From positions 124,001 to 188,000 of the forward strand of contig JACFMS010000001.1 of the NCBI GenBank assembly GCA_019455285.1: 64,000 nucleotides of DNA, read 5' to 3'. A model generated the notes under the pieces. The model saw only the letters and a program-made list of their open reading frames with translations. It had not been told where the DNA came from and made no database searches. Below are positions 7,328 to 18,413 of the stretch, one piece after another; the stretch's first letter is position 1; each line of letters opens with the position of its first letter. This DNA is from Sphingomonadales bacterium (GTDB lineage: Bacteria > Pseudomonadota > Alphaproteobacteria > Sphingomonadales > Govanellaceae). The translations under genes were made by a program, and so were the position numbers.

Positions 7328-8563
7328 TCAGCGCGGCGACGCCATGTCCTCCTCGGGGTACGCGCCGACCTTGTGGATCGCCAGATCCGCGCCCATGAAC
7401 TCATCTTCGTCCGACAGACGAATGCCGATGGTGACTTTAAGCACGCCGTAGATCGCCGCGCCGCCGATGAGCGCCGCCGCGATGCCGGCAACTGTGCCCA
7501 CAAGTTGCGCCGCCAAACCGACGCCGCCCATGCCGCCCAGCGCTTCCAGGCCGAACACGCCGCAGGCGATGCCACCCCACGCGCCGCACAAGCCATGCAG
7601 CGGCCACACGCCGAGCACGTCATCGATCTTCCAGCGGTTTTGCACGATCACGAACATACGCACGAACAGTGCCCCCGCCACCGCGCCGGTAGCCAGCGCG
7701 CCGATCGGGTGCATGACGTCGGAGCCGGCGCACACCGCCACCAGACCGGCGAGTGCGCCGTTGTGAACAAAGCCCGGGTCATTGCGGCCAACGATCAGCG
7801 CCGCCAGGATGCCGCCGGCCATGGCCATCAGCGAATTCATGGCGACAAGACCGCTGATGGCGTCGAGCTTTTGCGCGCTCATAACGTTAAAGCCGAACCA
7901 GCCGATGCACAAAATCCACGAGCCCAAGGCGAGGAAGGGAATGTTCGATGGCGGGATGCCGACCACCGCGCCGTCGCGGCGATAGCGGCCGCGCCGCGCC
8001 CCCAATAGCACCACCGCAGCGAGCGCGATCCAGCCGCCCATGGCGTGCACCACCACCGAACCGGCAAAGTCGTGAAAGGCATAGCCGAAAGCGTTTTCGA
8101 TCCAGGCCTGAAAACCAAGCCGGCCGCCCCACACCAGCCCTTCAAAGAAGGGATAGAGAAAGGCGACGATGAGGAAGGTTGCCGCCGTTTGCGCCCAAAA
8201 GCGGCCGCGTTCGGCGATGCCGCCGGAAATGATCGCCGGAATGGCGGCGGCGAAGGTCAAGAGGAAAAAGAACTTCACCAGATCATAGCCGCTCGCGGCA
8301 AAGCCCGCGGCGCTCGGCGCGCCGCCTTGCAGATCGCGGGCGCTGGCGATGAAATCGACGCCATAGGCCACGCCATAGCCGATGAAAAAGTAGGCGATGG
8401 TCGAGACCGCGAAATCCGCCAGGATCTTGACCAGGGCGTTGACCTGGTTCTTGCGTCGCACCGTGCCCACTTCCAAAAAAGCAAAGCCGGCGTGCATGGC
8501 GAACACCAGAATTGCCCCCAACAACATGAACAGTACTTGGCTGCCCGCCGCAATTTCTGACAT
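7328..8563 (-). CDS. amtB: Ammonium transporter AmtB
   Basis: This inner-membrane channel conducts ammonium. The 411 residues form about eleven membrane helices. The twin pore histidines are H173 (in DFAGSVVVH) and H323 (in WPLHGLCGAWG), with the pore-entry Asp of FHDFAG at 165. The C-terminal tail DEDEFMGADLAIHKVGAYPE is the cytosolic segment contacted by PII proteins, so GlnK-type control is expected. No glnK lies next to it. ATG at 8563 is chosen for the strong AGGGGAGG upstream. The leader holds two hairpins, one a terminator, described separately. Confidence 0.95.
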   Translation of the reverse strand: MSEIAAGSQVLFMLLGAILVFAMHAGFAFLEVGTVRRKNQVNALVKILADFAVSTIAYFFIGYGVAYGVDFIASARDLQGGAPSAAGFAASGYDLVKFFFLLTFAAAIPAIISGGIAERGRFWAQTAATFLIVAFLYPFFEGLVWGGRLGFQAWIENAFGYAFHDFAGSVVVHAMGGWIALAAVVLLGARRGRYRRDGAVVGIPPSNIPFLALGSWILCIGWFGFNVMSAQKLDAISGLVAMNSLMAMAGGILAALIVGRNDPGFVHNGALAGLVAVCAGSDVMHPIGALATGAVAGALFVRMFVIVQNRWKIDDVLGVWPLHGLCGAWGGIACGVFGLEALGGMGGVGLAAQLVGTVAGIAAALIGGAAIYGVLKVTIGIRLSDEDEFMGADLAIHKVGAYPEEDMASPR

Positions 8564-8600
8564 GACGAAACCTCCCCTTTCGTTGCCTCCGCCCATGCGG

Positions 8601-8639
8601 AAAAAATAGGCAAAAGCGCTTCGCGTGCGCTTTTGCCTA
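8601..8639 (-). terminator. Intrinsic terminator in the amtB leader
   Basis: TAGGCAAAAGCGC (8607-8619) and GCGCTTTTGCCTA (8627-8639) form a perfect 13-bp stem with a 7-base loop. On the minus strand it is followed by six T residues (8601-8606). It lies only 38 bases before the amtB start codon, on the sense strand, so it either attenuates amtB or ends a short upstream transcript. Confidence 0.75.
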
Positions 8640-8654
8640 AGTTTTGGGCTGAAT

Positions 8655-8680
8655 GATGGCGTCCCCCAAAGGGGACCATC
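8655..8680 (-). promoter_or_regulatory. Second leader hairpin upstream of amtB
   Basis: GATGG (8655-8659) pairs with CCATC (8676-8680) and TCCCC (8662-8666) with GGGGA (8671-8675), leaving a 2-base bulge and a 4-base loop. It precedes the terminator hairpin in the presumed amtB leader transcript. No known riboswitch class is recognised. Confidence 0.4.
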
Positions 8681-8857
8681 TTCGTCGCCCGACCGCGGCG
8701 AACCTTCCGTTGCCGGGCGACAAGCCGACAGTCACACGCCGCGTCCCTATAGGTGTCGAAACGCGGCGCACCTCTCTACTTCAAGAAGCATGCCAATGCT
8801 GGACAGGGCGCGCCGCGCTCGCCCATACTGGCGCTGGACAACGGAGCGCCCGCCACC

Positions 8858-10075
8858 ATGACAGCCAACGACAGCCATGACGTGATCATTTCCGGCGGCG
8901 GCCTTGTCGGCATGACGCTGGCCTTGGCGCTGGCGCAGGGCGGCTTGCGCTCCTTGGTGGCGGATCGGGATGCGCCGGCGCGGGCGCTCGACCCCGAGTT
9001 CGACGGCCGCGCCTCGGCCATTGCTTTTGCCGGCTATAAGCTCTTTGACGCCATCGGCCTGTGGCCGGCGCTCAAGGACAACGCGCAGCCGATCGAGGAA
9101 ATCCGCGTCTCCGACGGCGCGTCGCTCCTCCATTTGCATTTCGATCAGCGCGAACTGGGCGAAGGCCCGTTGGGCTTCATGCTGGAGAATCGCCGCATTC
9201 GCTTGGCGCTCCATGAAGCGGCGGCGGGAGAGCCGTTGATCAGCTTGCGCGCGCCGGCGCGGATTGCGTCGGCGACGCGCGAGACGGCGGGCGTTAAGAT
9301 TGAGTTGGAAAATGGCGAGGTCGCTACGGCGCGGCTATTGATCGCCGCCGAGGGCCGCCGCTCGCCGCTGCGCGAAGCGGCCGGCATCAAGCTTTACGCC
9401 TGGAGCTATGACCAGACCGGAATCGTCGTCACCGCCCATCACGAACGGCCGCACCGCGCCATCGCGCATGAGCATTTTCTGCCCGCCGGGCCGTTCGCCA
9501 TCTTGCCGCTAACCGGCAACCGCTCGTCCCTGGTGTGGACCGAACGCACCAAGACCGCCAATACTTTACTTAAGCTGCCGCAAGGACTGTTCGACGCCGA
9601 GCTGCGCCGCCGCTTCGGCGATTTTTTGGGTCACGTGCAGTCAGAAGGTCCGCGTTGGTCCTATCCCTTGGACCTGCAAATCGCCGAGCACTACACCGAG
9701 CGGCGGCTGGCGCTCATTGGCGATGCGGCGCACGGCATCCATCCCATCGCCGGACAGGGCTTAAACCTCGGCTTGAAGGACATCGCCGCACTGGCGCAAG
9801 TGCTGGCCGAGGCGGCGCGCGCTGGCGAGGACATCGGCGGCAACGCGGCGCTGGAGCGCTATGCCCGCTGGCGACGCTTCGACAACATGACCTTAAGCGT
9901 GGTGTGCGACAGTTTGGTGCGGCTGTTTTCCAACGACATCGCGCCCGTGCGCATCGCCCGTGATCTCGGCCTTGCCGCCGTCAACCGCTTACCGCCTTTG
10001 AAACGCTTTTTCATGCACCACGCCCGCGGCACGGTGGGCGAGCTGCCGCGGCTGTTGCGCGGCGAGGCGCTCTAA
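8858..10075 (+). CDS. UbiH/UbiF/VisC-family FAD hydroxylase of ubiquinone synthesis
   Basis: This flavin monooxygenase of 405 residues hydroxylates the ubiquinone ring. It shows the N-terminal Rossmann motif [15 protein letters not shown], the RSPLRE stretch near residue 170, and the late FAD motif [23 protein letters not shown]. Alphaproteobacteria carry several members (UbiH, UbiL, UbiM types) with different ring positions, and sequence alone does not tell which one this is. ATG at 8858 is chosen because the Rossmann fold starts soon after and GGAG lies about 11 bases upstream; the longer upstream frame adds 35 residues without family support. Its stop overlaps the Trm112-like gene by 4 bases, tail to tail. 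Confidence 0.9.
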
Positions 10076-18381: not shown

Positions 18382-18413
18382 AAAAAAACCGGCCCTTGTA
18401 TCAAGGGCCGGTT
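18382..18413 (-). terminator. Intrinsic terminator after the OsmC gene
   Basis: AACCGGCCCTTG (18387-18398) and CAAGGGCCGGTT (18402-18413) form a perfect 12-bp stem with a 3-base loop. On the minus strand it runs into seven T residues (18382-18388). It lies 38 bases past the stop of the OsmC-family gene. Confidence 0.9.

Follow-up and report, generated by a model that had tools for sequence, protein, structure and literature searches.

The amtB gene in this 64-kb stretch of DNA (the window, meaning the whole stretch that was analyzed) is preceded by a sigma-54-like promoter, and two NtrC-type enhancer-like sites lie downstream of this promoter at the two ends of a terminator-like stem-loop (Table 1). 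The reading that we favor, which from the sequence we judge to have an even chance of being correct, is that amtB has a sigma-54/NtrC promoter whose downstream enhancer pair doubles, as RNA, as a terminator limiting read-through. The promoter site, the site pair, their order, and the hairpins are present in the sequence as predicted elements. From these we infer NtrC binding, looping from a downstream position, the efficiency of termination, and a limiting role or purpose. All support is computational, and the arrangement is known from two near-identical genomes only.

Table 1. Predicted features of the amtB upstream region and flanking genes
Feature	Position	Strand	Basis or remark
amtB-type ammonium transporter	7328..8563	-	411 aa; Pfam PF00909, E 2.8e-86
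amtB start ATG	8563	-	sequence
Shine-Dalgarno AGGGGAGG of amtB	8571..8578	-	sequence
NtrC-type enhancer-like site 2, TGCCTATTTTTTCCGCA	8596..8612	-	three weight matrices; its T-tract is also the U-tail
T6 tail of terminator, directly after stem	8601..8606	-	sequence
Terminator stem-loop, perfect 13-bp stem, 7-nt loop	8607..8639	-	sequence
NtrC-type enhancer-like site 1, AGCCCAAAACTTAGGCA	8634..8650	-	three weight matrices
Second hairpin, GATGGTCCCCTTTGGGGGACGCCATC, arms GATGGTCCCC...GGGGGACGCCATC	8656..8681	-	fold
Third hairpin, GTCGCCCGGC...GTCGGGCGAC	8684..8721	-	fold
5' hairpin, first base is predicted +1	8736..8769	-	fold
Predicted transcription start	8769	-	placed from the sigma-54 site, 12 nt past the -12 position
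Sigma-54-like promoter TTGGCATGCTTCTTGAA	8780..8796	-	weight matrix
Sigma-70-like hexamers, possible ubiH promoter	8800..8829	+	number of such hexamers not above chance expectation
ubiH-like FAD monooxygenase, divergent	8858..10075	+	Pfam PF01494

Sigma-54-like promoter and gene context

An earlier note on this DNA stated that no sigma-54 promoter was found. This was contradicted by a clear sigma-54-like site at 8796-8780, which scored 27.8 bits, the runner-up on both strands of the 64 kb reaching 14.2 bits. For the weight matrix, 22 distinct sites from 33 relatives were used, with the window and its sister genome of the same genus (G001) excluded; the 33 relatives also omit non-alphaproteobacterial loci and the alphaproteobacterial loci L017, L022, L029, and L077, which showed no clear promoter. 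A conserved TTGGCAY-N5-TTG was found before the amtB start in loci of the same order with ubiH-amtB synteny (L096, L105, L106, L107, L109, L112, and L116), and the first 16 bases of TTGGCATGCTTCTTGAA are identical in L112. The textbook -12 element is TTGC; here it is TTGA, as in many relatives. The sigma-54 factor RpoN is encoded in the genome (PF04552, E 5.8e-69), and no NtrC-type activator was detected among the 37 scanned proteins of the window.

Of 104 amtB upstream regions, 40 had a sigma-54 site of at least 15 bits. In 38 of these the site lay at -49 to -110; the exceptions were the window and G001, at -233/-235. This survey restored the loci left out of the matrix set and dropped L038, which was too short; L114 and L118-L120, partial or distant-paralogue loci of the order, were not used. 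A site at -233 implies a leader of about 206 nt in which the hairpins are transcribed. With transcription predicted to start at 8769, ahead of every hairpin, one would expect either premature termination or a short RNA.

The amtB gene is the second Amt paralogue of the genome and has no glnK attached, and the other paralogue adjoins a P-II gene on another contig. Between the window and G001, the gene is 94.4% identical in DNA and the protein is 97% identical, indicating that amtB is still under selection. Several relatives of the order have two amt genes arranged in tandem, of which the second is orthologous to the window amtB; in the genome of the window the two are apart. The tandem arrangement was seen in G010, G026, G040, G053, G062, G068, G074, G094, G105, and G108 (loci L094-L108), among others.

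Terminator and leader hairpins

The perfect 13-bp stem with six T residues just before the amtB ribosome site, reported in the earlier note, is present on the minus strand at 8639-8601. Among the terminator-like stems on the two strands of the 64 kb it is the longest, and among terminator-like sites the strongest; stem and T6 together score as a strong terminator. Terminator-like stems of at least 12 bp did not occur in six Markov resamplings of the 64 kb (one strand each). One other long terminator-like stem was found in the window, at 18387-18413 on the minus strand (12 bp, T5). The second hairpin (8681-8656), also noted before, is joined by two more at 8721-8684 and 8769-8736, and the next gene, ubiH-like, is indeed divergent. 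Folding of the predicted 169-nt RNA gave -91.9 kcal/mol (z -6.8), and none of 200 shuffles was equally stable.

These hairpins led the earlier note to suggest transcription attenuation or a small RNA. The suggestion holds in that a terminator lies inside the predicted amtB leader. Its conditional form is less likely, since prefix folding of the leader gave no strong antiterminator structure competing with the stem. A conditional attenuator would be a terminator that is on by default, with an RNA-binding protein, an RNA, or a ribosome event permitting read-through. In favor of such a device, the predicted transcribed leader ends in a strong terminator close to the ribosome site, with several stable hairpins upstream, and ANTAR-controlled nitrogen leaders are known (accessible part of PMC3369931). 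The prefix folds lower this reading, and a leader peptide was rejected: the open reading frame from the ATG at 8679 is out of frame, is only 3 codons long in G001, and lacks its ATG in G002, a genome of another genus in the same family (both alignments by eye).

In leaders controlled by ANTAR/NasT proteins, such as those of nas and eut, a nitrogen gene is likewise preceded by hairpins and a terminator (accessible parts of PMC3369931 and PMC5424462), and the target leader has two hairpins with hexaloops carrying A1 and G4 (accessible part of PMC3369931). The predicted loops here are 10, 8, 4, and 7 nt. An ANTAR-type hexaloop was thus absent from all predicted loops, and an ANTAR leader was ruled out by loop form, as far as PMC3369931 describes it in its accessible part. 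The present leader differs from these systems in that it has no hexaloop pair and no competing antiterminator and in that its stem overlaps DNA activator-like sites. A search of the genome for an ANTAR protein gave no match, and the control genomes were equally without a match. On balance, we regard a conditional attenuator as unlikely.

Masking of the ribosome site by the second hairpin was considered as well and rejected. Its TCCCCTTT (8668-8675) could pair with the amtB ribosome site (AAAGGGGA, 8573-8580), but the minimum-energy fold contained this pairing only if the 5' part was omitted, and the match is shorter in G001.

Conservation in related genomes

The intergenic DNA is 96.9% identical to that of G001, and the amtB, ubiH, aminotransferase, and ftsK genes are 92.3-94.4% identical. 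Positions 8553-8667 form a run of 115 nt identical in G001, and this run ranks no higher than fifth in length in 15.9 kb. By eye, two G001 substitutions in the third hairpin and one in the 5' hairpin keep G-U pairs on the minus strand.

In G002, the ubiH and aminotransferase genes are present with no amtB between them. Its intergenic DNA nevertheless aligns to the leader with a local score of 239, compared with 131 ± 16 for shuffles (0 of 1,000 as high) and with 0 of 314 real stretches reaching it. Neither the promoter (1.6 bits) nor the site pair (-4.7) survives there, the stem is short, the T-run is broken, and the rough terminator score is below 0. The gap in G002 (L142:5211-5574, G002:C1) holds two facing TGTCATTC...GCGGGAATCCAG-type repeats, together with a sigma-54 site that has decayed. 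In G003, the fourth genome of the family, the sequence ends at ubiH.

A covariance model was built from the window, G001, and G002, and it finds the element in 3 of 4 family genomes, all three being its building set, with 73 bits in G002. In 396 genomes of the order and 385 of the class, other matches were at chance level. Relative to the model, 2 of 19 pairs are changed on both sides in G002 and 5 others are broken, with an uncertain alignment of the stem; the covariation comparison covers two near-identical genomes and one eroded relative. Conservation of the hairpins in relatives, to which the earlier note had looked, was not seen outside the immediate family. A terminator-like hairpin of at least 8 bp between promoter and start occurred in 2 of the 40 regions, those of the window and G001, and in none of the 38 other sigma-54 amtB regions.

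The G002 alignment first raised the suspicion of an autonomous small RNA. According to this explanation, the RNA of about 169 nt, or its last 85 nt or so, would be a nitrogen-induced product acting in trans, and amtB would be expressed by leakage. A highly structured RNA with a hairpin-linker-terminator layout is consistent with it, as are the alignable segment in a genome lacking amtB (239 versus 131 ± 16) and the 73 bits of the covariance model, though G002 was used in building that model. The short stem, broken T-run, and lost promoter of G002 fit decay instead and leave this explanation as a rival only. Outside the family, the genomes of the order and class gave chance-level scores only, and no Rfam family was matched at curated thresholds, at which a tRNA was the sole known RNA family in the 64 kb. 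The MmgR/suhB small RNA (RF00519) has a similar hairpin-linker-terminator layout, and MmgR is NtrC induced (both from the accessible part of PMC7143759). This candidate was rejected: the leader scored 20.4 bits, half of the curated 41, and a true copy is elsewhere in the genome. The subthreshold suhB and ar7 matches in the window were assigned to chance level, as a search of the genome itself with an E limit of 10 gave 21 suhB matches, of which only one was over the cut-off. A trans-acting RNA is given slightly less weight than the conditional attenuator and is likewise unlikely. The favored enhancer-terminator reading, for its part, explains the hairpin-like remnants of G002, which are without promoter, sites, or amtB, only as erosion.

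Enhancer-like sites at the ends of the terminator dyad

In relatives, amtB is preceded by two 17-bp palindromes (e.g., TGTCTATTTTTTAGGCA) whose starts are mostly 39-42 bp apart and whose pair is centered 68-140 bp upstream of the promoter. Three NtrC-type matrices were built without the window. Matrix 1 (14 sites, seven loci) ranked 8612-8596 first and 8650-8634 second in the 64 kb, and matrix 2 (19 sites from other relatives) ranked them in the reverse order. Matrix 3, built from 6 sites before glnK/glnB-type genes of the window's own genome, G001, and G002, placed 8612-8596 first and 8650-8634 third. The sites behind one matrix (f8) were chosen by eye, and the first matrix served to find the sites of the second. 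As a pair with a spacing of 38, the sites scored 28.6-31.7, and the next pair in the 64 kb scored 14-17. None of 500 dinucleotide shuffles of the leader reached 28.6. By eye, 14 of the 17 letters of site 2 equal the TGTCTATTTTTTAGGCA of L105, L107, and L116. Both sites are imperfect, with one perfect half each.

Two sites of the same motif precede glnK in the window's own genome, and the motif also occurs before one glnB/K-type gene, which points to NtrC. NtrC is the putative binder, as judged from the motif and the neighboring nitrogen genes. Each of the two sites has 2 mismatches to the NtrC consensus of Paracoccus, as published in the accessible part of PMC5424462, and this consensus fits better (1 mismatch) at a site overlapping the amtB start. 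The statement in the earlier note that no known protein-binding leader was recognized needs revision, because the stem ends match NtrC-type enhancer sites.

The site pair makes up the two ends of the terminator dyad: the inner halves, TAGGCA/TGCCTA, form the outer stem, and the 21-nt spacer gives 7 further complementary pairs. The pairs of 29 relatives have 2 or fewer, indicating that the hairpin exceeds a mere by-product of two sites. Among 31 amtB regions having both a promoter of at least 15 bits and a site pair of at least 20 bits, the pair is upstream of the promoter in 29; it is downstream only in the window and G001, about 170-174 bp from the promoter and within the predicted transcribed leader.

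These comparisons bear on the explanation that the dyad is an NtrC enhancer pair acting as DNA only, its RNA hairpin being a tolerated by-product. The tandem sites of relatives, which lie outside transcribed DNA, resemble such plain DNA elements, and in L064 (Sneathiella) a 19-bp terminator-like dyad sits upstream of the sigma-54 site. The seven extra spacer pairs, unseen in the 29 relatives, and the score of stem and T6 as a strong terminator argue against a by-product and make this explanation improbable. That an ordinary leader terminator, a remnant of a lost gene or a random gain, resembles NtrC sites by chance is very improbable, the sites being imperfect but the matrix ranks, the pair score in the 64 kb and in leader shuffles, and the spacing of 38, near the 39-42 of most relatives, all standing against it.

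Proposed mechanism and comparison with known systems

Under the favored reading, in which enhancer pair and terminator coincide, nitrogen limitation would cause NtrC to bind the pair, loop back, and open the sigma-54 promoter. The polymerase would then make a leader of about 206 nt with four hairpins, and much of the transcription would stop near 8601, giving an RNA of about 169 nt. AmtB would be made only by read-through, so that its expression would be limited, and NtrC on the same DNA may limit amtB further. A more specific form, in which a single 55-bp sequence is at once downstream NtrC enhancer and intrinsic terminator, capping amtB and, with NtrC bound, perhaps also blocking the polymerase, is proposed tentatively and is less probable than the general one.

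If true, the nitrogen response would carry its own limit, built into one overlapping DNA/RNA element. This would be a natural example of an enhancer moved into the transcript under its control, where its bases serve a second time as a terminator. It would also offer a compact test of the coupling between initiation control and termination control. For sequence scans, a caution follows: enhancer palindromes with a T-rich center can mimic terminators. Here the enhancer and terminator readings overlap, and promoter position alone separates them.

Sigma-54 systems with downstream enhancers include FleQ of Pseudomonas and FlbD/ftr of Caulobacter. The present element is similar in having activator sites downstream of the promoter, but those systems involve neither NtrC nor amtB, and to our knowledge their downstream sites do not double as intrinsic terminators. 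A literature search, which covered few subscription papers, found no amtB leader terminator and no enhancer that is also a terminator. Proteobacterial NtrC/sigma-54 promoters of glnK-amtB or amtB share the -24/-12 site, the NtrC-type palindrome pair, and the amtB target with this region; it differs in that the pair is downstream in the leader and forms a terminator. The content of the NtrC regulon is described in the accessible part of PMC5343134. The element would thus work like an NtrC/sigma-54 amtB promoter, minus the usual upstream position of the sites.

Terminator-like dyads were also observed at other loci. The L064 dyad, about 177 to 132 bases before amtB, overlaps an NtrC-type site, illustrating that enhancer dyads can resemble terminators. 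Loci L012, L014, L071, and L084 (Thiobacillus-type) have a common ACGCCCC...GGGGCGT-like hairpin with a T-rich tail upstream of sigma-54-like sites, 118 to 240 bases before amtB. At the genome's own glnK-amtB locus (L091, G000:C12), the region 150-180 bases before glnK was noted for two strong NtrC-type sites accompanied by only a weak sigma-54-like match (7.9 bits), which is located just behind a GCCGCC...GGCGGC terminator with T7.
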